From a virus, in the IMG/VR virus record IMGVR_UViG_3300009285_000496, positions 1 to 40,896 of that record: a DNA stretch of 40,896 nucleotides; one strand, given 5' to 3'. The notes under the pieces were generated by a model. The model saw only the letters and a list, made by a program, of their open reading frames with translations. It did no database searches and was not told the DNA's origin. Shown in pieces: positions 1-40,896 of this stretch. Position 1 is the first letter of the stretch. Every line of letters begins with the position of its first letter. The translations under genes were made by a program, and so were the position numbers.

Positions 1-1
1 G

Positions 2-232
2 TGTGGAATTACAAAGGTTGAATGCCCTGCATTTACTGTTTCAGTAAAAACAAATCCTCCTTCTGTAGATGTGATTGACGAGAATCAAATTCCCACTGAA
101 TTTATGAGGACTCCAGAGCCTAAGCCACCAGTAGCAGCTCCTGATAAACGTGCGATTCTTGAGTCATTGAAAAAAGGCGAGGAAGTAGCTGGTTGCATGA
201 TTAAACGATCTGTTAAATTAGAGATTAAATAA
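2..232 (+). CDS. Gp157-family phage protein, C-terminal part (partial at window start)
   Basis: The frame is open from base 2 and stops at 230-232, giving about 76 residues. It reads CGITKVECPAFTVSVK, then NPPSVDVIDE, IPTEFMR and a final KRAILESLKKGEEV, which is the C-terminal signature of the Siphovirus Gp157 family. The N-terminal part of the same family is at 40640-40896 and breaks off in a compatible phase, so the two are probably one gene cut by the window edge. Joined end to end it would be about 162 residues, with perhaps a handful fewer than I expect between WLL and CGITK. Gp157 proteins are of uncertain function, often beside annealing proteins as here (Rad52). The family assignment is good; the exact junction is inference. 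Confidence 0.85.
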   Translation, partial: CGITKVECPAFTVSVKTNPPSVDVIDENQIPTEFMRTPEPKPPVAAPDKRAILESLKKGEEVAGCMIKRSVKLEIK

Positions 233-254
233 ATTTCAGAAAGAAGGTTAAACA

Positions 255-530
255 ATGGAATACGACAATAAAAACAGAGGTCAAATCTGGAAAAACGACA
301 AAAAGGAAACAGAGAAGCATCCAGACTTCACTGGGTCGCTTAACGTGGATGGTGTCGAGTATTGGGTGTCAGGATGGAAACGAAAGGAAGGGCAGAGTGA
401 TAAAGCGCCAGCATTGTCATTTACAGTAAAACCAAAAGAAGAGAAGCAATCAGCAAAGCCAGCCTACCAACCAGGAGTAAAGAATCCAAACTTCACTGAT
501 GAAAACTTCGACAACGATTTACCTTGGTAG
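255..530 (+). CDS. Small protein with SSB-like acidic tail
   Basis: This 91-residue protein lies just after the Gp157 gene with an AAGAAGG-like ribosome site. It has a compact basic N-terminal half (NRGQIWKNDKK, then FTGSLNVDGVEYWVSGWKRK) resembling a small beta-barrel, a lysine/proline-rich linker, and the ending NFDNDLPW. That tail is close to the acidic C-terminal peptide of single-stranded DNA-binding proteins (DDDIPF-like) that recruits repair proteins. With Rad52 and Gp157 immediately upstream, a single-strand-binding or recombination accessory role is plausible. This is inference from the tail and context; the fold was not verified and it is shorter than a standard SSB. Confidence 0.7.
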   Translation: MEYDNKNRGQIWKNDKKETEKHPDFTGSLNVDGVEYWVSGWKRKEGQSDKAPALSFTVKPKEEKQSAKPAYQPGVKNPNFTDENFDNDLPW

Positions 531-30213: not shown

Positions 30214-30242
30214 ATAATAGTAGTACTGAGAACAATTTGCAA
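30214..30242 (-). promoter_or_regulatory. Leftward promoter at the outer end of cassette array 1
   Basis: Reading leftward, TTGCAA (30242-30237) is the -35 and TATTAT (30219-30214) the -10, with an exact 17-base spacer. The -35 forms the last part of repeat R1. The promoter faces out of the array and would drive the Cys-rich gene and the NinG operon region. The mirror-image copy at 39807-39835 has the same spacing. Confidence 0.75.
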
Positions 30243-30282
30243 TTAAAAGTTTGATTTACTGATAGAGGCCTATTTTACGTTA
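30239..30282 (-). repeat. R1: 44-bp inverted-copy promoter/attI-like element, left copy
   Basis: The reverse complement runs TAACGTAAAATAGGCCTCTA and onward to CAAACTTTTAATTGC. It matches 39767-39810 in 40 of 44 positions, in opposite orientation. The outer end is the -35 of a promoter, and the inner end is GTTAGGC, an exact GTTRRRY core at 30279-30285. Similarity to the other copy stops at this core, as expected if a cassette was inserted between G and TT. The stop of the last cassette gene lies inside the repeat. Confidence 0.8.
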
Positions 30283-30452
30283 GGCAACTCTGGTAATTCC
30301 TGCCAATGTGTTACCTCTGATTCTCCATGAACAGTATCGATCCATGTCCCGCACCAATACGCTGCTATTGATACATAGTCACCATTAAACGTTAATACTG
30401 CATTATCATGCTCGGGTAATATTGGTAATTCAATCCATGTGTTATTTTTCAA
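30270..30452 (-). CDS. DUF551-like small protein (array 1 cassette)
   Basis: This 60-residue protein has the DUF551-type C-terminal THWQELPELP and an N-terminal TWIELPILPEHDNAVL, a repeated W-x-x-L-P element. Its start is TTG at 30452 with AAGGAG five bases upstream. It is the cassette closest to the R1 end, bounded by R1 and attC 30482-30540, and its last codons lie inside R1. DUF551 proteins are common phage genes of unknown function. Confidence 0.7.
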   Translation of the reverse strand: MKNNTWIELPILPEHDNAVLTFNGDYVSIAAYWCGTWIDTVHGESEVTHWQELPELPNVK

Positions 30453-30481
30453 AATAGCTCCTTATCCTCTTTTAAAGTTCA

Positions 30482-30540
30482 GCCTAACCCGTCGTTCAAG
30501 AGGGACGCGCTAAAGCGCGCCCCTTAACTTTACGTTATGT
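30482..30540 (+). repeat. attC site (array 1)
   Basis: A 59-bp site from GCCTAAC to GTTATGT. The inner boxes are GTTCAAGAGGG and CCCCTTAAC, which pair apart from extra bases on the left, including the C of GTTC. The core hairpin is ACGCGC/GCGCGC around TAAA. It separates the DUF551-like cassette from the RHH two-gene cassette. Confidence 0.85.
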
Positions 30541-30541
30541 T

Positions 30542-30733
30542 TCACTTCCGAGCCGCCCAGCGCCGCAGCAGTTCGCGCACCACGTCGGGCAGGTTCTCGC
30601 CGGTTCGCGTCGCCTTTTCTTCCGCCACTTCGAGCAATTCGGCCGGCATCCGCACACGCAAGACCGGCGAGGCGCCGCGCGCCCCGCTTAGGTTTGTCGG
30701 CCCCTTGCCGGGGCCTTGCTTCTTGTCGGTCAT
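30542..30733 (-). CDS. Ribbon-helix-helix protein (array 1 cassette)
   Basis: This 63-residue protein has an RHH core SPVLRVRMPAELLEVAEEKA followed by RTGENLPDVVRELLRRW, the strand-helix-helix pattern of CopG/Arc DNA-binding proteins. The N-terminal 18 residues are a basic, Gly-rich tail. Its ATG overlaps the end of the upstream gene by four bases (ATGA), and the stop abuts attC 30482-30540. It is more GC-rich than the phage. It may autoregulate through the repeated TAGCACxCAAAA elements near 31080-31130. It could be the antitoxin of a toxin-antitoxin pair with its partner; that is inference. Confidence 0.75.
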   Translation of the reverse strand: MTDKKQGPGKGPTNLSGARGASPVLRVRMPAELLEVAEEKATRTGENLPDVVRELLRRWAARK

Positions 30734-31032
30734 TGCAGGCTGCGCAGCGCATCGAGTTGCATTTCGGCGTCGCAGTGCCAGTGATACTCGGCTGCGCCGT
30801 TGTCACGGTAGTCGTTCTCGTGCGCGCGCTTGGCACGCTCCAGTGCGTCGCCGCTGAGGACCGCTCCGGCGCAGTGCGCAATCGCCTCACCAACCGTAGC
30901 GAATGAACCAATGTTGTCGCAGTCGCCTACGTAAATACGCCCGTCATCGCCCTTGGCAACGAACGGAGAGCAGAACCCATCGCCGTCGACCAGGTTGCGG
31001 TCCAGGCATTCACTTTTGTTCATCGTGGTCAT
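30730..31032 (-). CDS. Unknown protein, first gene of two-gene cassette
   Basis: This 100-residue protein has Cys at several positions (SECLDRNLVDGDGFCSPF) and helical stretches rich in Ala and charged residues (IAHCAGAVLSGDALERAKRA, WHCDAEMQLDALRS). GGAG lies six bases before the ATG. It overlaps the RHH gene downstream by four bases and has its own promoter. No fold is recognised; it could be a toxin-like or metabolic cassette protein. Confidence 0.6.
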   Translation of the reverse strand: MTTMNKSECLDRNLVDGDGFCSPFVAKGDDGRIYVGDCDNIGSFATVGEAIAHCAGAVLSGDALERAKRAHENDYRDNGAAEYHWHCDAEMQLDALRSLQ

Positions 31033-31078
31033 TTCGTTCTCCTGTCTGCGGTTCGCGCCTATCGCTCACCATGACTAC

Positions 31079-31106
31079 ATGGTAGCACACAAAATAAACG
31101 TGTCAA
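31079..31106 (-). promoter_or_regulatory. Promoter inside cassette (RHH pair)
   Basis: Leftward TTGACA (31106-31101) and TACCAT (31084-31079) with a 16-base spacer, about 50 bases before ATG 31032. Two near-copies of TAGCACxCAAAA (about 31083-31094 and 31117-31128) overlap and flank it and could be operators for the RHH protein. It is the clearest cassette-borne promoter in the two arrays. Confidence 0.7.
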
Positions 31107-31127
31107 GCGTTTTCTGTAGCACGCAAA

Positions 31128-31192
31128 ACATAACACGTCATTCCAGCGGACGCGGCGAAGAAGCCGCCGCGCCCCTGAATTTGGCGTTGGGC
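31128..31192 (+). repeat. attC site (array 1)
   Basis: A 65-bp site from ACATAAC to GTTGGGC (exact GTTRRRY). The inner boxes are ATTCCAGC and CCCCTGAAT, pairing with an extra C on the left; the central hairpin is CGCGGCG/CGCCGCG. The 31138-31407 gene reads into it, so its last 18 or so residues come from the attC. Confidence 0.8.
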
Positions 31193-31407
31193 ATTAGTCT
31201 TGCATCTGGATCAGCCGCCAGAATTGCGCGACACCGTGCAACTAATTCAGCCTTGGTTTCGGCATCGTGCGTTACCACGTCGCGCAGTTCGCGGATCGTC
31301 GCTGCAAGGATATCGGCTCTGTGCTTTTGTTGTTGGTATCCAATGTACGCTTCCCTTGCTGCTTGTTCACTACTTAGGTAGGTTATCCGCCATGCTTCGT
31401 AACTCAT
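31138..31407 (-). CDS. Helical protein with attC-encoded tail (array 1 cassette)
   Basis: This 89-residue protein has AAGGA upstream of its ATG and a helical body (SSEQAAREAYIGYQQQKHRA, TIRELRDVVTHDAETKAELV). The C-terminal PNAKFRGAAASSPRPLE is encoded by the attC site itself, so the cassette gene has no stop before the site. The body is charged and helix-rich; function unknown. It is co-directional with the phage genes, not with the attC polarity. Confidence 0.65.
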   Translation of the reverse strand: MSYEAWRITYLSSEQAAREAYIGYQQQKHRADILAATIRELRDVVTHDAETKAELVARCRAILAADPDARLMPNAKFRGAAASSPRPLE

Positions 31408-31421
31408 ATCATCCTTTCGCT

Positions 31422-31480
31422 GCCCAACCCTGCATTCAAGCGGGACGCGCTAAAGCGCGCCCCTTAATTTTACGTTAGGC
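31422..31480 (+). repeat. attC site (array 1)
   Basis: A 59-bp site from GCCCAAC to GTTAGGC. The inner boxes are ATTCAAGCGGG and CCCCTTAAT with one extra base on the left; the central ACGCGC/GCGCGC hairpin with a TAAA loop is the same as in the 30482 site, so these two sites are close relatives. Confidence 0.85.
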
Positions 31481-31663
31481 ATTGTTCTTTTTCATTACCT
31501 TGAAGTTGTCACTTGATCCAGCGATATATGAATCTGACATCACCTTGCGCATCGCCTCGCGCATGTCTGCCAACGTACTCGGCATCGTGTAGTACCTCAG
31601 CGCCGAGCCAGATGCTTTCAGCACCGAATCAAGTGCCTCATCTATTCTTTGTTCTGGTGTCAT
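31475..31663 (-). CDS. Small helical protein (array 1 cassette)
   Basis: This 62-residue protein starts at ATG 31663 with AAGGA upstream. N-terminal helix TPEQRIDEALDSVLKASGS, then STLADMREAMRKVMSDSYI. Its stop overlaps the GCCTAAC core at the R'' position (in gene orientation), a typical cassette end. Function unknown. Confidence 0.65.
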   Translation of the reverse strand: MTPEQRIDEALDSVLKASGSALRYYTMPSTLADMREAMRKVMSDSYIAGSSDNFKVMKKNNA

Positions 31664-31676
31664 TTCAATCCTTTCT

Positions 31677-31740
31677 GCCTAACCCATCGTTGCACGCGGA
31701 CTGGCGAAAAGCCGCCAGCCGGTGAACTCAGACGTTAGGT
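31677..31740 (+). repeat. attC site (array 1)
   Basis: A 64-bp site from GCCTAAC to GTTAGGT. The inner boxes are GTTGCACGCGG and CCGGTGAAC, with extra bases on the left; the central hairpin is CTGGCG/CGCCAG. It lies between the 31475-31663 gene and the truncated membrane gene on the other strand. Confidence 0.8.
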
Positions 31741-31748
31741 TTATATTT

Positions 31749-32237
31749 ATGACTGCATCTATCTCTCCAAATCAATTGGCTTCTATAGTGCATCGCATGA
31801 TTCACTTGATAACGTGGTTATGGGTTGCTGTTTTTCATATTGCGCTACTAGCCATTGCGCTATTTGCGCTGTATCTTCTCGACATAAAAGGTGCTGACAT
31901 ATACACGTATCTTTTATCTCTGGGCACCATTTTGGGTTTCCAAGCTGGATGGCAATTTCTTTCATTTTTTGGCGTTTCTGGGTTCGCATTAATCTCCGCT
32001 TACGCCATCTTTGTAAAAAAATACGCAGTAAAATTTTCAATTGATTACCTCTGGAAAAATATAAGTGATCATAAAGCGCAGCCCCTCAACTACACGTTAG
32101 ACCGCAATGCAAGCCGCAGACGCTGTTGCACGGCTTCGCAACCCTCGTATGTCAGCGGGGACTCGGATTCACGCAGCACTTCGCGGACTACATCTATGGC
32201 GTACTCAATCCCCGCGTTCCAACGGCCTTTAAGCTGA
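31749..32237 (+). pseudogene. Truncated membrane-protein cassette, only cassette gene on attC polarity
   Basis: From ATG 31749, just after GTTAGGT, the frame encodes two strong transmembrane segments (LITWLWVAVFHIALLAIALF and ALYLL; LGFQAGWQFLSFFGVSGFAL) and basic residues around FVKKYAVKF. At about 32070 it runs into the right half of an attC (32072-32102) and on into antisense sequence of the next gene. Its own stop and the left half of the attC appear deleted. It is the only cassette gene on the plus strand in array 1. No ribosome site is visible, so expression is doubtful. Confidence 0.55.
32072..32102 (+). repeat. Half attC site (array 1, left half deleted)
   Basis: Right half only: AGCGCAGCCCCTCAAC then TACACGTTAGAC ending at 32102. 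It matches the same half of the array 2 attC at 37960-38018 (reverse complement) closely. The matching left half, expected just before, is missing; the membrane gene runs directly into it. Confidence 0.75.
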
Positions 32238-32425
32238 TCCCGCAGCGCGGCTATTTCTTGTGCGTCGGCTTCGATTCTTTCTGCGGCTTGCAGGTAGATG
32301 TGTGCGTTTCCAGCTTCGACTCCACGATCAAACATCCATTTCCATGCAGCTTCGCGGTCTGCGTATTGCCAAGCATCGTAGCTTTTATATTCGTCCGCCG
32401 CTTCTTCTGCCGTTCGTATTTCCAT
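32090..32425 (-). CDS. Helical cassette protein ending in RSNV (array 1)
   Basis: This 111-residue protein is rich in Ala, Glu and Arg (RTAEEAADEYKSYDAWQYAD, AAERIEADAQEIAALRDQL, QRLRLALRSNV). GGAG lies upstream of ATG 32425. The last residues SNV* come from the attC half site, as in array 2 gene 38597-38905 (also ...LRSNV). Such attC-encoded ends mark it as a cassette protein. Coiled-coil likely; function unknown. Confidence 0.65.
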   Translation of the reverse strand: MEIRTAEEAADEYKSYDAWQYADREAAWKWMFDRGVEAGNAHIYLQAAERIEADAQEIAALRDQLKGRWNAGIEYAIDVVREVLRESESPLTYEGCEAVQQRLRLALRSNV

Positions 32426-32438
32426 ATCAATCTCCTTT

Positions 32439-32458
32439 ACCTAACCCGTTGGCGGATC
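32439..32458 (+). repeat. Half attC site (array 1, right half missing)
   Basis: ACCTAAC at 32439-32445 followed by CCGTTGGCGGA fits an attC left half. No right half follows; the sequence runs into the stop of phage gene 32466-32609. It marks the truncated inner boundary of array 1. Confidence 0.65.
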
Positions 32459-32465
32459 TGGCGCA

Positions 32466-33430: not shown

Positions 33431-33628
33431 ATGTGGAAAATAAAACTAGACGAACTAAACAAACTCGGCATTACGCAGACGTACATCGCTGCGCAGATCG
33501 GTGTGAGTCAGGCATTTATTAGCCAGCTTGCGTCAGGCAAGGCCAAATCATTGGATTATGATGCCGGGGTTAGGTTTAACAGGCTCTATTTGAGGATCAT
33601 GAGAAAGAGTAAAAATGAAACGAATTGA
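33431..33628 (+). CDS. Cro-like helix-turn-helix protein
   Basis: This 65-residue protein has the HTH unit ITQTYIAAQIGVSQAFISQL, with ASGKAKSLDYDAGVRFNRL after it, typical of small Cro-like phage regulators. It is the first rightward gene of the early switch region, opposite the leftward operon. Probable role: repressor or Cro that binds the palindromes around 33304-33420. No matching CI-type gene is visible on the other strand. Confidence 0.75.
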   Translation: MWKIKLDELNKLGITQTYIAAQIGVSQAFISQLASGKAKSLDYDAGVRFNRLYLRIMRKSKNETN

Positions 33629-33710: not shown

Positions 33711-34145
33711 AATTCCCCTCCCTGGAGAATTACAGCATCCCCCAGCGCTTTGGCGTAGTCTGATGGGGGTATAGCACTAAGAAGAAGCCACCTTGGCGCC
33801 TTTGTGATTGGAACTTACCGGTCGGGCGAATACTAGTTTTCAGGGTGGTTCCTTGTTGGTGTTAAAGGCGTATCGCCATGAGACGTTATGGCTACTCGGG
33901 CGGAGTATCCGGCTCCCGTCCTGAAATAAGTGTCGCAAGGGATTGTGCATAGTATCGAGCTATAGGGCACGAATTGCACACCAACTTCATATTGCAAGCT
34001 TTCCAGTAATACGTTATAGTTCTATCCAGAGGTGGTTTTTCACTTTCACGACCAGGTGAACATAGTAAAAAGCCTCCTTGGCCTAACGCCATCATTCTAA
34101 TACTGGTCTATTAGTTTGGTGGCGTTTTCTTTTGGAGGCTCAAAA
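33711..34145 (+). promoter_or_regulatory. Structured untranslated leader of the antirepressor gene
   Basis: There is no convincing plus-strand gene in these 435 bases. CCCCCA (33739-33744) pairs with TGGGGG (33764-33769). The motif AAGCC-x-CCTTGGC occurs at 33785 and again at 34070. AACGCCA (34085-34091) pairs with TGGCGTT (34120-34126) and is followed by TTCTTTT. AGCCTCC (34071-34077) pairs with GGAGGCT (34134-34140), which contains the Shine-Dalgarno of the antirepressor. A minus-strand frame at 33892-34095, MKLVCNSCPIARYYAQS downstream, is possible but unsupported. Confidence 0.6.
34085..34133 (+). terminator. Terminator-like hairpin ahead of antirepressor
   Basis: The stem is AACGCCA/TGGCGTT, with an inner CTAAT/ATTAG (34096-34100, 34109-34113) and a TTTTCTTTT run. 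It lies directly before the antirepressor ribosome site, so early transcripts from the HTH gene may end here unless antiterminated or refolded. Confidence 0.7.
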
Positions 34146-34829
34146 ATGCTTGAAATATCAAAATCAACATCCGCAACAATGTCCAGCCGTGAAATGGCAG
34201 AATTGACTGAAATTAGACATGACAGCGTAAAAAGAACTATTGAAACACTACTCTATAAGGGTATTCTTCAAGATACACAATTTGTGGATTATGAAATAAT
34301 CAATGGGTTAGGTATTAAAACTTACGGTAAAGAATATCTGATAAATAAACGTGACAGTTACATTATTGTTGCGCAACTATCCCCAGAGTTTACCGCTCGC
34401 CTAGTTGACCGATGGCAAGAGCTGGAATCAAAGCAACCATTAGCCTTGCCAAGCTATCAGGAAGCCCTCAGACAGCTCGCAGACCAGCTAGATATAACCA
34501 GCAAGCAAGCATTACAGATCGAAGCACAGAAGCCTGCCGTGGAGTTTGTGGAGCGTTATATCGAATCTAGTGGTAACAAAGGATTTAGAGGAGTATGCAA
34601 ACTCCTCAAGGCGAATGAATCACGATTTAAAGAGTTTTTGCTGGAAGGTAAAGTCATGTATCGACTGGATGGAAGATTGATGCCATATGGTAATCATCTT
34701 GATGCGGGACGTTTTGAGGTTAATGCTGGGATTGCTGATAATGAACACTCTTATACCGCTGCAAAATTTACGCCAAAGGGTATAAATTGGGTTGCTGGAT
34801 TGTGGGCTGTTCATAACTTGCAATCATAA
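34146..34829 (+). CDS. Phage antirepressor, Rha-type N-terminus with KilAC C-terminus
   Basis: This protein has 227 residues from ATG 34146, seven bases after GGAGG. N-terminal MSSREMAELTEIRHDSVKRT, IETLLYKGILQDTQFVDYEI and INKRDSYIIVAQLSPEFTAR match the pRha domain. C-terminal AQKPAVEFVERYIESSGNKG, FRGVCKLLKANESRFKEFLL and YGNHLDAGRFEVNAGIA match the KilAC antirepressor domain. Such proteins inactivate repressors to switch a prophage to lytic growth. It has a structured leader, so expression is probably controlled at transcription termination and at the ribosome site. Its stop is followed by the replication genes. Confidence 0.9.
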   Translation: MLEISKSTSATMSSREMAELTEIRHDSVKRTIETLLYKGILQDTQFVDYEIINGLGIKTYGKEYLINKRDSYIIVAQLSPEFTARLVDRWQELESKQPLALPSYQEALRQLADQLDITSKQALQIEAQKPAVEFVERYIESSGNKGFRGVCKLLKANESRFKEFLLEGKVMYRLDGRLMPYGNHLDAGRFEVNAGIADNEHSYTAAKFTPKGINWVAGLWAVHNLQS

Positions 34830-36965: not shown

Positions 36966-37262
36966 ATGCACATTGACTATTTCAGCGGAGAAGCCGCAGA
37001 CCTTAAGCGTGGCCATCGTAGCTCGGAGGATGTGCTGTTGGTTTTGGCAAAACATCCACGGGTAAGTACTTGGGATATGAGCGAGCTTCCGTGGTTGCGT
37101 GCCGCGATAGTTGATCTTGAGAAACGAGGATTGATTGTTGCGCAGGATGAGCCATATCCTTGGCACAGATACAAACTAACTAGTATTGGGCTGGCGGAGT
37201 CAGTGTTGAATGTTAGGGTTATAAGTCACGGTTTGCAACGAGCCTTACCGGGCGCGCGCTAG
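36966..37262 (+). CDS. Winged-helix-like small protein
   Basis: This protein has 98 residues from ATG 36966 with GAGGAG five bases upstream. Residues from DVLLVLAKHPRVSTWDMSEL to PWLRAAIVDLEKRGLIVAQD form a winged-helix-like unit followed by WHRYKLTSIGLAESVLNVR. It is the last phage gene before array 2. The ending HGLQRALPGAR is composition-shifted, so the original end may be nearer 37215. Bases 37263-37402 hold no gene. Confidence 0.6.
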   Translation: MHIDYFSGEAADLKRGHRSSEDVLLVLAKHPRVSTWDMSELPWLRAAIVDLEKRGLIVAQDEPYPWHRYKLTSIGLAESVLNVRVISHGLQRALPGAR

Positions 37263-37402: not shown

Positions 37403-37461
37403 CTATAACGTGTAGTTAAGCCGCAGCTTTTTTTGCGGTCGGCTTAAACGGAAAGTTAGGC
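37403..37461 (-). repeat. attC site (array 2, first)
   Basis: A 59-bp site from CTATAAC to GTTAGGC. Plus-strand inner boxes AGTTAAGCCG and CGGCTTAAACG pair with one extra base on the right, that is, on the left when read in attC polarity. The central hairpin is CCGCA/TGCGG around GCTTTTTT. It lies after the winged-helix gene. Confidence 0.85.
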
Positions 37462-37481
37462 ATTTTAACTGGAGAATAGAA

Positions 37482-37652
37482 ATGGACGATAAATTTTGCA
37501 CTGACTGCATTTACTGTCGTGGCGAAGAATGCAATGGACCGGGAGGTGCTCCAGAAGGGAAAGAGATATACGGCTATTCAAAAGCATGTGATTGCTACGA
37601 AGAAATTGAAGCACCTGAGATTGTTCCCTGGAACGTTGGACGCACTAAATAA
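37482..37652 (+). CDS. Small Cys-rich protein (array 2 cassette)
   Basis: This 56-residue protein has GGAG upstream of its ATG and seven cysteines would not be expected by chance: KFCTDCIYCRGEECNGP and SKACDCYEE give six. It is likely a metal-binding protein. The C-terminus (IVPWNVGRTK) comes before the next attC. Function unknown. Confidence 0.65.
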   Translation: MDDKFCTDCIYCRGEECNGPGGAPEGKEIYGYSKACDCYEEIEAPEIVPWNVGRTK

Positions 37653-37662
37653 ACTCGGTAAA

Positions 37663-37728
37663 GCCTAACGACCAAGCTAAGGGGCCAGGCGGCAGTTTGC
37701 CTGGCCCCGCTTGAACGGCGGGTTGTGC
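37663..37728 (-). repeat. attC site (array 2)
   Basis: A 66-bp site from GCCTAAC to GTTGTGC. Inner boxes AAGCTAAGGGG and CCCCGCTTGAACG pair imperfectly, with extra bases on the right-hand side. The central stem is GGCCAGGC/GCCTGGCC around GGCAGTTT. GTTGTGC departs from GTTRRRY at one position, as do several other sites here. Confidence 0.8.
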
Positions 37729-37753
37729 GTCAATTTTTAACAAGGAGAAAATT

Positions 37754-37972
37754 ATGGGTTGCGGAGCTGGAGGAACGAACCACATCAGAAAAGGTGAGTA
37801 TGGCGCAAAAGGAGCGCACCCACTGTGCGGAGAGGGGCAGCTTGGATATATGTGGTCGCCCGAAGAATTTAAGCGCATGGAGGAAGAAGGTCGCGCCTGT
37901 AGAGCCTGTCAGATCGCAATAGAGCGAGATGAACTTGCGGATCGACTGGAAACTCTGGCACATAACGTGTAG
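37754..37972 (+). CDS. Small cassette protein ending in HNV (array 2)
   Basis: This 72-residue protein has AAGGAGAAAATT before the ATG. N-terminal GCGAGGTNHIRKGEYGAKGA, HPLCGEGQLGYMWSPEEFKR, then a helix with CRACQIAIERDELADRL. The CRACQ and HPLCGEG spacings suggest a zinc site. The C-terminal HNV* is encoded by the start of the next attC. Confidence 0.65.
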   Translation: MGCGAGGTNHIRKGEYGAKGAHPLCGEGQLGYMWSPEEFKRMEEEGRACRACQIAIERDELADRLETLAHNV

Positions 37973-38018
37973 TTGAGGGGCTGCGCTTTATGCAGTCCGC
38001 TCGAACGTAGGGTTGTGC
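37960..38018 (-). repeat. attC site (array 2)
   Basis: A 59-bp site from ACATAAC to GTTGTGC. Inner boxes GTTGAGGGGC and GCTCGAACG pair with an extra base on the right. Central CTGCGC/GTCCGC arms around TTTATGCA. The half site in array 1 at 32072-32102 is almost the same sequence in the opposite orientation. Confidence 0.85.
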
Positions 38019-38043
38019 GACATTTTTCAACAAGGAGAAAAAC

Positions 38044-38223
38044 ATGGAAACACCAAAAGTTTTTATTGGAACATCGGATTCATGTGATTTTGAACAGAAT
38101 ACATGGACATTCACATTTAACGACCCGTTTCAGGTAAGCGCGGGTGAATATGCTATTTTGCGGAGACAGGATTACCAAAAGTTGCTTGCCGCTGCGCGTG
38201 CCGAAGATGCAAAACTACAATGA
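38044..38223 (+). CDS. Small cassette protein (array 2)
   Basis: This 59-residue protein begins METPKVFIGTSDSCDFEQNT, then WTFTFNDPFQVSAGEYAIL and a helix QKLLAAARAEDAKLQ. AAGGAG precedes the ATG by seven bases. The leader CATTTTTCAACAAGGAGAAA closely matches that of the preceding cassette. Function unknown. Confidence 0.6.
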   Translation: METPKVFIGTSDSCDFEQNTWTFTFNDPFQVSAGEYAILRRQDYQKLLAAARAEDAKLQ

Positions 38224-38224
38224 C

Positions 38225-38291
38225 GCACAACGTGGAACTAAAGGGCTGACGCGGCACTTCGCGGCAGTCCCGCTGGATTGTATGGTTGGGC
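38225..38291 (-). repeat. attC site (array 2)
   Basis: A 67-bp site from GCACAAC to GTTGGGC (exact GTTRRRY). Inner boxes AACTAAAGGGC and GCTGGATTG, central hairpin GCGGCACTTCGCGGC. The boxes pair with an extra base on the right. Confidence 0.8.
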
Positions 38292-38313
38292 AACGATTTT
38301 CAACGGAGATAAT

Positions 38314-38520
38314 ATGGCAATAGGATATTGCAGCGACTGTGAAAGTGAGTTTGGCCATCGGAGCCATTGCCGACGACTTGAGCAGACCACAACAACTATT
38401 GGTACTCCACCATGCGAACACGGTAACGGGTGGTATATCACTGTTAGATTTTGGTGGTTCAAAAAGCGGCTCTTTGTATGCAGTGATTGCGGAGAGCCAA
38501 TAGAGGTGCCCAACGTCTGA
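38314..38520 (+). CDS. Small zinc-binding-type protein (array 2 cassette)
   Basis: This 68-residue protein has CSDCESEFGHRSHC near the N-terminus and LFVCSDCGEPIEV at the C-terminus, two Cys pairs fitting a zinc ribbon. CGGAG precedes the ATG. It ends PNV* in the start of the next attC. Could act on DNA or RNA; no direct evidence. Confidence 0.65.
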   Translation: MAIGYCSDCESEFGHRSHCRRLEQTTTTIGTPPCEHGNGWYITVRFWWFKKRLFVCSDCGEPIEVPNV

Positions 38521-38569
38521 ATTCACCGGCGCGCGCTTTTGCGCGTCCGGGTTGAATGATGGGTTGTGC
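38508..38569 (-). repeat. attC site (array 2)
   Basis: A 62-bp site from GCCCAAC to GTTGTGC. Inner boxes TGAATTCACCGG and CCGGGTTGAATGA, central GCGCGC/GCGCGT stem around TTTT. Confidence 0.8.
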
Positions 38570-38596
38570 GTCAACCCTAATACGGAGATCAGAACT

Positions 38597-38905
38597 GTGA
38601 GAGTAGAAAACATAAAGGCGACAACATTCACCATCTTTGACGCGCCAAAGTTAGACCCTGTGACAGTGGTTTTGCAAGACATGGGCGGGCAAGGGCGCGT
38701 AATCATTGAATGCTTTGGGAGCGCGTGGTCGGGATATTGGGGCGCGATTGGCATAAACACCCTGAAAGAGTTTCTGATCGGATGCCACCCCGAATATATC
38801 GCCGGAAAGATGGAGCCATCAGACCGGCGACTGAAAAAGAGCGAGCAAGCGTACCTGCTGCGCGTGGTGGAAGCTGTGCATTCTGCATTGCGGTCTAACG
38901 TGTAG
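38597..38905 (+). CDS. Cassette protein ending in RSNV (array 2)
   Basis: This protein has 102 residues from GTG 38597, with GGAG nine bases upstream; no ATG fits better. The N-terminal part is beta-rich (ENIKATTFTIFDAPKLDP, VTVVLQDMGGQGRVIIECF) and followed by a helical C-terminal half (RLKKSEQAYLLRVVEAVHSA). Ends LRSNV* using the next attC, as does the array 1 gene 32090-32425. No family recognised. Confidence 0.65.
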   Translation: MRVENIKATTFTIFDAPKLDPVTVVLQDMGGQGRVIIECFGSAWSGYWGAIGINTLKEFLIGCHPEYIAGKMEPSDRRLKKSEQAYLLRVVEAVHSALRSNV

Positions 38906-38952
38906 TTGAGGGGCCGCGCTTCTCAGCGGTACGCTCGAACGGAAAGTTAGAC
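38893..38952 (-). repeat. attC site (array 2)
   Basis: A 60-bp site from GTCTAAC to GTTAGAC (both exact). Inner boxes GTTGAGGGGC and GCTCGAACG; central CCGC/GCGG arms. It resembles the 37960 site in both boxes. Confidence 0.85.
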
Positions 38953-38974
38953 GCATTTTACAATGGAGAACGGA

Positions 38975-39178
38975 ATGAGTGAAAAAGTTGTTTTCTTAGC
39001 GTTTAAAAATGAACATGTGCATGATGAGTATGTTTCATTTACCACCTGCTCGCATTGTAAAAATAAAACATTTACGATGCACCCCTCTAATGAGGATGGA
39101 GTATTTCCAATGCTTCGATGCGCTGCATGTGGGACAAATATCGGGAGAGTTGGGTGGGGCGATGATGTTGCGCTCTAA
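38975..39178 (+). CDS. Zinc-ribbon-like protein (array 2 cassette)
   Basis: This 67-residue protein has FTTCSHCKNKTFTMHP and MLRCAACGTNIGRVGWGD, two CxxC pairs in a zinc-ribbon arrangement. It starts at ATG 38975 with GGAG six bases upstream; an ATG at 38963 overlaps the ribosome site. Its stop overlaps the core of the next attC. Confidence 0.7.
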   Translation: MSEKVVFLAFKNEHVHDEYVSFTTCSHCKNKTFTMHPSNEDGVFPMLRCAACGTNIGRVGWGDDVAL

Positions 39179-39242
39179 CGACTGACATGAGGGGCGACGC
39201 GCGGCTTATTGCGCGGCGTCCCTCTCGATGGATGGGTTAGCC
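39173..39242 (-). repeat. attC site (array 2)
   Basis: A 70-bp site from CTCTAAC to GTTAGCC. Inner boxes CATGAGGGGCG and CCCTCTCGATGG; central GACGCGCGGC/GCGCGGCGTC arms. Longest complete site seen. Confidence 0.75.
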
Positions 39243-39280
39243 GGCTACCCACGAAGCCCGGCACCAAAGAGGACAAGAAC

Positions 39281-39457
39281 ATGAAATTCCATTACTACAT
39301 TACTAACCTACACGAAGGCGCTGTCGAAGGCACGAACGACGATCAGGTGGCGATCGACTTTGCGGGCAGCGAAGACTATTTCGTTGTTGATGCCGAGCGT
39401 GGCGACTGGCTTCAAGCGTCCGGCAATGCGCTTCCGGTTGAAGATGCAGCCGGCTAA
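39281..39457 (+). CDS. Small acidic protein (array 2 cassette)
   Basis: This 58-residue protein begins KFHYYITNLHEGAVEGTNDD, then QVAIDFAGSEDYFVVDAERG. It is acidic and beta-like, with GAGG upstream of ATG 39281. The stop TAA overlaps the next attC core. Function unknown. Confidence 0.6.
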   Translation: MKFHYYITNLHEGAVEGTNDDQVAIDFAGSEDYFVVDAERGDWLQASGNALPVEDAAG

Positions 39458-39507
39458 CGCAGAAATCAGGGGCGGCGAAGCCGTCCCGCTGGATTGACGG
39501 GTTATAC
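39452..39507 (-). repeat. attC site (array 2, last)
   Basis: A 56-bp site from GGCTAAC to GTTATAC. Inner boxes AATCAGGGGC and CCCGCTGGATTG, with a short central stem GGC/GCC. It precedes the last cassette gene, which runs into R2 without another attC between. Confidence 0.75.
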
Positions 39508-39531
39508 CACATCTTTACTACGGAGAGAAAC

Positions 39532-39774
39532 ATGGATTTTGGCGATTTTTGCGAAATAGAACAAAAGCGTTATGGCGTGCCAAACGAGTTTTATACCTAC
39601 AAAGTGATCGGAGCTGGACAAGCAAATTATTACATACCTGTCCCGGTTGGGTCAGAAAACGTGAAACGATTTGCTGATATGTGCGATGTCGTAAAGGTTA
39701 TTTGTTGCGGAGTTTGCGAAGAGAAAGTCGAAACATTCAGATTGCAGGATGTTCGCCCGAAGGGAATAACGTGA
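39532..39774 (+). CDS. Last cassette protein of array 2
   Basis: This 80-residue protein begins DFGDFCEIEQKRYGVPNEFY, continues YKVIGAGQANYYIPVPVGSE and has CGVCEEKVETFRLQD. CGGAG precedes ATG 39532. Its last codons (GGA ATA ACG TGA) lie inside R2, so the insertion point truncated or set its end. No full attC separates it from R2. Function unknown. Confidence 0.65.
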   Translation: MDFGDFCEIEQKRYGVPNEFYTYKVIGAGQANYYIPVPVGSENVKRFADMCDVVKVICCGVCEEKVETFRLQDVRPKGIT

Positions 39775-39810
39775 AATAGGCCTCTACCAATAAATTAAAC
39801 TTTTAATTGC
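39767..39810 (+). repeat. R2: 44-bp inverted-copy promoter/attI-like element, right copy
   Basis: TAACGTGAAATAGGCCTCTA and onward to TTAAACTTTTAATTGC, 40 of 44 identical to the reverse complement of R1. Differences are four transitions. The inner end TAAC, GTTA on the other strand, is the core at which the array joins. The outer end supplies the -35 of the promoter at 39807-39835. It contains a near-palindrome ATTAAACTTTTAAT. Confidence 0.85.
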
Positions 39811-40071: not shown

Positions 40072-40207
40072 CGATAATAGTCAGTGGAAGCAGGAACAGG
40101 ATGAATATGAGCAATGTCATCCTGGCGATTTTGATGAGTGGGTAGCCTCTATGGAGAAAACATATGGAACCGAACGAAATAAAAAACTCCCTACTTCGCC
40201 CTTTTGA
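40061..40207 (+). CDS. Small acidic protein upstream of Rad52
   Basis: This 48-residue protein has GGAG before its ATG and reads DRDDNSQWKQEQDEYEQCHP, GDFDEWVASMEKTYGTERN. Strongly acidic. It overlaps the Rad52 start by 44 bases in another frame; the overlap lowers confidence but start signal and composition are good. Confidence 0.6.
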   Translation: MDRDDNSQWKQEQDEYEQCHPGDFDEWVASMEKTYGTERNKKLPTSPF

Positions 40208-40643
40208 AGTAAACAAGATTAGCTGGCGCGTAGGGGCAACAACTGGCGATAAAACCAAGGGGATTGCGCTTGCTTACATAGATGCGCGTGATGTAATGAG
40301 CCGACTCGATGATGTTTTTGGGCTTGATTGGCAATGCAAATATTCCCATGCTGAAAATAAAACTATCTGCGAAATCGGTGTAAAGGTAGCAAATGAATGG
40401 ATATGGCGTGCCGGTGGTGCTGGTGATACTGACGTAGAAGCAGAAAAAGGGGCTATTTCAGACGCATTTAAGCGTGCTGCCGTGCTTTTTGGTGTTGGGA
40501 GATACCTGTACTCACTGCCTAACACTTGGCAGGCTATAAAGCCTCAAGGCAAGTCTTTTGTACTAGATGGTCACCCTGTTTTGCCAGCATGGGCAACGCC
40601 AGAAGGTTTTGATGCAATTATGGAGAAAAGGAAGCAAAAATGA
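40164..40643 (+). CDS. Rad52-family single-strand annealing protein
   Basis: This 159-residue protein has the Rad52/22 core: NKISWRVGATTGDKTKGIAL, YIDARDVMSRLDDVFGLDW, then the conserved AEKGAISDAFKRAAVLFGVG and GRYLYSLPNTW. GGAG lies seven bases before ATG 40164. It anneals complementary single strands in phage recombination and probably acts with the SSB-tail-like protein and Gp157. The gene overlaps the next by four bases. Confidence 0.92.
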   Translation: MEPNEIKNSLLRPFEVNKISWRVGATTGDKTKGIALAYIDARDVMSRLDDVFGLDWQCKYSHAENKTICEIGVKVANEWIWRAGGAGDTDVEAEKGAISDAFKRAAVLFGVGRYLYSLPNTWQAIKPQGKSFVLDGHPVLPAWATPEGFDAIMEKRKQK

Positions 40644-40896
40644 GCACTCTGTACGAATTAACCGGAAATCGTCTCGCACTCCAGCAGAAGCTGGAGATGA
40701 TGAATCTGGACGAAGAAACCATCACCGACACACTCGAAGGTGAGTCTAGTGAACTTGAGGCTAAAATCCAAGATTACGGCTTCGTTATCCAGAACAGAAA
40801 CTCTTTCGCGACTGCTATCAAGTCAGAAATTGAACGTTTGCAAACCCGTTTGAAATCAGAAGAAGCCCGCATTAAAAAGGTAGAAGATTGGCTTTT
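40640..40896 (+). CDS. Gp157-family phage protein, N-terminal part (partial at window end)
   Basis: The gene starts ATGA-coupled to Rad52 and encodes STLYELTGNRLALQQKLEMM, the EESSELEAKIQDYGFVIQNR-type helical core (read from the window as GESSELEAKIQDYGFVIQ), then KSEIERLQTRLKSEEARIKK. It breaks off after 85 codons plus two bases, matching the phase of the C-terminal part at 2-232. It is the N-terminal signature of Siphovirus Gp157. Position directly after Rad52 supports a recombination accessory role. Confidence 0.9.
   Translation, partial: MSTLYELTGNRLALQQKLEMMNLDEETITDTLEGESSELEAKIQDYGFVIQNRNSFATAIKSEIERLQTRLKSEEARIKKVEDWL

Follow-up and report, generated by a model that had tools for sequence, protein, structure and literature searches.

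Clusters of attC sites lacking integron-integrases (CALINs), in which attC sites are combined with small genes and intI is absent, have been described in virulent and other phages, and five of six phage attC sites tested recombined with attI1 through IntI1 (Qi et al. 2023, PMC9892861). In a canonical gene cassette it is the bottom strand, antisense to the gene, that recombines; an extrahelical G in the R''-L'' arm marks it, and the crossover takes place at the R' box after attC (PMC2727003). Here we describe two cassette arrays in a 40,896-nucleotide stretch of viral DNA, IMG/VR record IMGVR_UViG_3300009285_000496, which was analysed over its full length (hereafter the window). Their cassettes are inverted, gene and attC site facing opposite ways, and both arrays start with an attI-like head.

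The phage CALINs of Qi et al. also pair attC sites with small genes and lack intI, and one of their genomes, MW202573, carries a similar array. These authors report neither a systematic inversion nor attI-like heads in virulent phages and call the array of PH101 typical (PMC9892861), whereas by the present models MW202573 and H101/PH101 are inverted and TJE1 is canonical. Shewanella prophage M16-3 and prophages of Vibrio anguillarum likewise contain integron parts with attI and cassettes, described as host-type integron fragments with intI (PMC9892861); the present phage, unlike these, has no intI and carries inverted cassettes inside early operons. The sedentary integrons of Methylophilaceae (Methylotenera, Methylophilus, Methylovorus) have the same attC family, the same attI core and short genes of unknown function, but they possess their own intI, their genes follow attI on the canonical strand, and they have no cassette proteins in common with the phages at hand, bar one weak match of 101. 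CALINs in phages being already known, the systematic inversion and the attI-like heads appear to be what is new here; no report of either in integrase-free phage arrays was found in a search that left most subscription journals and bioRxiv outside its reach.

Inverted cassettes and attI-like heads

Array 1 consists of eight full attC sites of 56-70 bp interleaved with short genes on the + strand (37403-39507): A1 (37403..37461), A2 (37663..37728), A3 (37960..38018), A4 (38225..38291), A5 (38508..38569), A6 (38893..38952), A7 (39173..39242) and A8 (39452..39507). Each site has R boxes, inner boxes, an extrahelical base and a central hairpin, and lies on the - strand when read canonically from R'' to R'. 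Array 2 (30239-32462), with operon genes on the - strand, was traced from two reverse-strand matches obtained when the array 1 region was searched against the whole record. It holds four full sites on the + strand, B5 (30482..30540), B4 (31128..31192), B3 (31422..31480) and B2 (31677..31740), a half site (32070..32102, +) and, at its distal end, an R-box remnant (32438..32462, +; CCGCCAACGGGTTAGG on the - strand). Both arrays together comprise 12 full attC sites in the 40.9-kb record. An earlier note made from the letters of the window had reported an array at 37403-39770, with eight sites of 56-70 bp alternating with short genes; these sites and genes are real and lie where it placed them, but the second array, the attI-like heads and the reversed polarity had escaped it.

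Covariation supports the sites as structured elements. Over the 12 sites, 84% of the cells are paired, against 26-45% when the partners are slid by one to three columns, and the covariation score exceeds that of all 500 shuffles. A covariance model built from the 12 window sites (R1), run on the record with E-values up to 5, matches these sites alone and gives no match on the other strand. An independent model (R2), built exclusively from 102 chromosomal attC sites of Methylophilaceae, recovers 12/12 sites with E-values from 8e-16 to 5.6e-4, the weakest being A1. A covariance search of both strands, a check that the earlier note had proposed, gives 12 sites, each on one strand only with either model. 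A search of Rfam at gathering thresholds returned no matches, and crude scanning for stem-loops gave too much noise.

A cassette is a circle, and its first box (TTRRRY) pairs with its last box (RYYYAAC). The cassettes of the window begin and end with such complementary boxes, as canonical cassettes do: the opening and closing boxes are perfectly complementary in 8/13 cassettes versus 1/12 within single sites, and the mean cassette-wise match is 6.3 of 7 positions versus 5.3 in shuffles, of which a fraction of 1.5e-5 reaches the observed value. The corresponding counts of perfect boxes are 56/61 cassette-wise versus 17/61 within sites in bacterial arrays, and 76/106 versus 22/106 in other phages. 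Both models and the box complementarity agree with the integron cassette anatomy first proposed for array 1. The arrays have 8 and 4 full attC sites, where a CALIN needs two or more within 3-4 kb, and no integron integrase lies nearby; they are CALINs, and the intI gene of a complete integron is absent. Searching the whole record for a tyrosine recombinase (PF00589) gave 0 matches, which leaves the host as the source of any recombinase.

All 12 attC sites face opposite to the operon genes. In 11/12 sites the gene-sense strand bears the extrahelical G, in 12/12 it is the strand that folds more stably, and R1 and R2 both match only the strand opposite to the operon genes. The recombinogenic strand, antisense to the gene in a canonical cassette, is therefore inverted in 12/12 window sites. 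By open reading frame (ORF) length, 100/108 intervals of the bacterial arrays have their gene on the model strand. Because ORF length alone is too weak to assign the gene strand in short cassettes (3/10 window intervals were assigned to the other strand), support by a ribosome-binding (Shine-Dalgarno) site was required and the caller used for phages was also run on the bacteria, where 80/90, or 30/35 with ribosome-site support, lie on the model strand.

Other phage arrays were collected from IMG/VR with site patterns blind to gene strand and with a Rad52 search (loci are cited by L number). Among their cassettes with Shine-Dalgarno support, 65/67 are inverted and 2 are not, and all arrays with a clear call are inverted (25/25), so that the reversed layout is seen in about 25 phage records besides this one. 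Compared with the Methylophilaceae integrons (30/35 in normal layout), the difference has a Fisher P of 2e-18. This test counts cassettes, not independent events, and pieces recur between a few of the records, so that the count by array is to be preferred. The complete circular P22-like genome MW202573 has six model matches on the - strand and its genes on the + strand. Phage H101 has one significant site, which is inverted, and others look inverted by eye. The only array leaning canonical, L215, has no Shine-Dalgarno-supported call; its record name suggests an isolate genome, and it may be a host integron at the edge of a prophage.

With its polarity opposite to the genes, array 1 reads leftwards from 39.8 kb, and new cassettes would enter it at the promoter-distal end. 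Read in this way, array 1 runs left from 39.77 kb and array 2 runs right from 30.28 kb, and both start, at the downstream end of the genes, with a common 44-nt sequence (91% identical). The likeness between these two heads stops at the predicted crossover ACG↓TT (the arrow marks the crossover), which lies between 39770 and 39769 in array 1 (head at 39767..39810, - strand; CACG↓TTATTC) and between 30279 and 30280 in array 2 (head at 30239..30282, + strand; TTACG↓TTAGGC). The 18-nt core, GCCTATTTTACGTTAGGC, matches 18/18 a site about 170 nt from the intI of Methylotenera sp. E2 and is nearly identical in others, with the host consensus TAGGATGYCTAYTTTACG↓TTAGGC. Written across the crossover, the head core GCCTATTTTACG↓TTAGGC equals the attI beside a Methylotenera intI. 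A matrix from 11 host attI sites places the two heads of the window 1st and 2nd among its 38 ACGTTR positions; among 211 candidate positions in other phages, the L203 head comes 1st. A single ungapped matrix fails for L211 and L214. The L214 head is two mismatches from the host attI of L252 and L254, which is another attI type. The heads of L203 and L292 both carry GGTGTACATYATACG↓TT, found nowhere else in 2 Mb of viral sequence except for a copy with two mismatches beside the L291 array. An exact search of viral contigs for the attI-like core with flank found nothing, and blastn gave no match in phages.

The 44-nt ends were at first considered as broken attC halves, which was dropped once the core matched host attI beside intI, and 39767-39810 was rejected as an attC site and assigned as an attI-like head. 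In L271 (5001-5607), a gene related to A9, with which array 1 begins, has no attC, and an attI-like sequence with 2/18 mismatches lies about 375 nt downstream.

A pattern derived from the window sites was run on one genome per species and matched mostly Methylotenera, Methylophilus, other Methylophilaceae, Gallionella and Nitrosomonadales. In 19 such loci (arrays of Methylotenera, Methylophilus, Methylovorus and Methylobacillus), R1 found 137 sites with E-values down to 1e-15. Judged by sequence, the window attC sites are of the Methylophilaceae/Nitrosomonadales type, since a model from Methylophilaceae alone recovers all of them; this names the site type and not the host itself. The attC and attI types together point to a host in Methylophilaceae or related Nitrosomonadales.

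Cassette genes, exchange and phage context

All eight cassette genes recognised earlier in array 1 were confirmed; each lies on the + strand behind a GGAG- or GAGG-type ribosome site. They encode 56 aa (37482..37652, Cys-rich), 72 aa (37754..37972, its stop codon within attC A3), 59 aa (38044..38223) and 58 aa (39281..39457), all four without a family; 68 aa (A5, 38314..38520, zinc-ribbon-like), with a 50% relative that is a cassette in phage L287; 102 aa (38597..38905; phrog_3451, E=2.7e-21, function unknown); 67 aa (38975..39178, zinc-ribbon-like); and, at the head, 80 aa (A9, 39532..39774; phrog_18349, E=7.6e-22), with a 71% relative in L271 that lacks attC. A ninth gene, of 98 aa upstream of A1 (36966..37262, +), probably belongs to array 1 as its most distal cassette gene, because its 77% relative is a cassette in phage L291, between two attC sites. 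No close relative of A6 was found in IMG/VR.

The genes of array 2 are on the - strand with one exception. From the head outwards they encode 60 aa (30270..30452, TTG start), 63 aa and 100 aa (30542..30733 and 30730..31032, a two-gene cassette), 89 aa (31138..31407), 62 aa (B3, 31475..31663) and 111 aa (32090..32425). B3 has a 77% relative in MW202573 (L273:34349-34528), where it is an ordinary gene without attC. The exception is a membrane-protein-like frame at 31749..32237 (+), which runs against the operon and whose end passes through the half attC. The attC flanking this frame is broken, as though an insertion or deletion had struck the hairpin tip: a single arm remains, which breaks near the tip and matches A3 at 100% (30 nt) and A6 at 97% (38 nt), after which the likeness ends. 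Between 38884-38921 (A6) and 32074-32111 (B1), the gene end and attC start are 97% identical, and the rest of the genes differs.

The earlier note took dense arrays of this kind to be uncommon. This did not hold, as the IMG/VR scans gave more than 20 further dense arrays, and several of the records were confirmed as phage by baseplate, tail, DNA polymerase, RecT, RecE and ejection protein genes. Its view of a swappable block moved by host IntI fared better: the record has no integrase and cassettes differ between phages. A common 1.2-kb cassette (76%) sits beside the head in L203 and inside the array in L291, its likeness beginning three bases before the crossover and ending in the next R box. 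L275 shares a 220-nt cassette with L273 (89%) and a 288-nt cassette with L274 (84%). The comparison of cassette content at the same site, which had been suggested as a check, is provided by L292: at the position of array 1, upstream of a relative (72%) of gene 39865, it has an array with other cassettes and a different attI-like head. The genes A9 and B3 are found without attC in L271 and MW202573, which suggests that ordinary phage genes become cassettes, as far as these relatives allow. Within the bacterial loci at hand, relatives were found for 1/101 phage cassette proteins, as a weak match.

A sister phage without arrays was sought through 80 Rad52 loci and terminase relatives, and no close one was found; L217, L224, L220 and L229 lack attC, but their distance precludes an empty-site comparison. 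L274, a 3.9 kb locus, is among the densest phage arrays, with nine full attC sites in 2.5 kb and one cut by the locus end. In L291, the attC at 2455-2577 has a long variable tip holding a short ATG frame after a purine-rich stretch.

The record belongs to a P22-like podovirus, with portal (phrog_156), head closure (phrog_578), terminase, a DnaC-type loader, NinB, NinG and Rad52/Erf. Leftward genes from 33.1 to 28.5 kb include array 2 and NinG, and rightward genes from 33.4 kb onwards include replication genes, NinB, array 1 and Rad52, the Rad52/Erf-like gene lying at 40164-40643. In both operons the cassette genes are co-oriented with the operon, apart from the array 2 exception, and the attI-like head is downstream. 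The GC skew turns near 33 kb, between the arrays. A Cro-like helix-turn-helix frame (33431-33628) and the frame at 34146-34829, a 47% relative of a gene near the L274 array, mark a divergent control region that contains no integrase. A non-coding-looking segment of about 100 nt (33850-33958; L274:3113-3216; L273:26647-26741) is conserved at 77-83% between differing neighbour genes and has no Rfam match; it could be a regulatory element or a replication signal. The ssb-like gene at the left end (window 1-530; right end 40640-40896) adjoins Rad52 in L005 and L007, and the record is for this reason probably a circular permutation cut between the two genes.

Mechanism and competing explanations

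We consider it probable that the arrays are phage-borne attI platforms with inverted cassettes and without intI, one in each divergent early operon, that are worked in trans by host IntI. During infection, host IntI would excise cassettes as circles and insert them at the phage attI or attC sites, and transcription from phage promoters would enter the cassettes at the far end and proceed towards attI. With forks diverging from between the arrays, the sense strand of a cassette gene co-directional with its fork would lie on the lagging-strand template, and in an inverted cassette this strand would be the recombinogenic one. Most chromosomal integrons keep their recombinogenic strand on the leading-strand template, where excision is low, and its transfer to the lagging template strongly raises excision (PMC5371416, PMC11023631). 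The inverted layout would then be selected because co-directional transcription and high shuffling are combined in it. Inversion would also keep the phage pool apart from the bacterial pool, since a cassette moved across would be antisense. The inverted chromosomal integron of V. cholerae has its recombinogenic strand on the lagging template (PMC11023631), as proposed for the phage, but in that experiment the whole array was flipped, genes included, whereas in the phage each cassette is flipped internally, gene against attC.

Several observations weigh against this explanation. Tetrasphaera phage TJE1, a published genome, looks canonical in site polarity, so inversion is not a universal rule. 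The sole cassette in canonical orientation in the window is the frame at 31749..32237 in array 2, and together with its broken attC it means that parts of the arrays decay. The host match is limited to the attI core and the flank differs, and the terminase relatives examined (<=67%), which lack attC, are not close enough to reveal an empty site in the same genome. The action of IntI on the phage sites is deduced from sequence, and the direction of replication from gene order and GC skew, a skew that transcription alone could cause.

The arrays could also be IntI-worked and inverted for a cause other than replication. The inverted recombinogenic strand is the displaced non-template strand of early transcription, which could expose it, and some cassette genes are attC-free in other phages, as would fit the birth of cassettes in phages by joining of attC to gene starts. 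Replication control of attC strand exposure is nevertheless an experimentally shown rule (PMC5371416, PMC11023631), and we regard an account with no role for replication as doubtful, though still to be taken seriously. Another possibility is that the hairpins no longer serve IntI and act as handles for homologous shuffling by Rad52/Erf with NinB and NinG, or as RNA elements. The phage does encode these proteins, A6 and B1 share 38 nt (97%) across the site, and the half site breaks at the hairpin tip, the kind of trace that homologous or illegitimate joining would leave. Selection of the IntI type is needed, however, for the per-cassette boxes, the kept extrahelical base with its CGTTRRRY box and the attI-like heads, and RNA function alone predicts neither the heads nor cassette-wise boxes; we think this explanation improbable.

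That a piece of host integron is carried as inert phage cargo, a passenger CALIN, would account for attC sites and an attI core of host type. Host arrays have the opposite polarity of gene and attC, though, and those at hand match the 101 phage cassette proteins just once and weakly; some of the genes are phage-type (phrog_3451, phrog_18349), the genes are co-oriented with two divergent phage operons, and the inversion repeats in unrelated phages, all of which makes inert cargo very improbable. As for a canonical layout, in which the array would begin at 37.4 kb and each gene would be followed by its attC, the R boxes are symmetrical and the genes do end at an RYYYAAC box; the strand-specific matches of two models, the position of the extrahelical base and the CGTT box, and the attI-like sequence at the other end leave this layout scarcely credible.

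Returning to attI platforms worked by host IntI, a wider claim would be that phages of Methylophilaceae-like and related hosts keep a cassette economy of their own, with integrase-free attI platforms in early operons, inverted cassettes, parasitised host IntI, lagging-template shuffling, a pool isolated from the bacterial one by mutual silencing of genes between the two layouts, and phage genes made into cassettes; we see about equal grounds to believe and to doubt it. The origin of cassettes and their near-uniform orientation are an open question in integron biology, and an inverted class separates two explanations of orientation, promoter use and strand exposure in replication. Such arrays offer a setting in which ordinary phage genes may be turned into cassettes, and the host integrase could serve phages as a gene-exchange machine.

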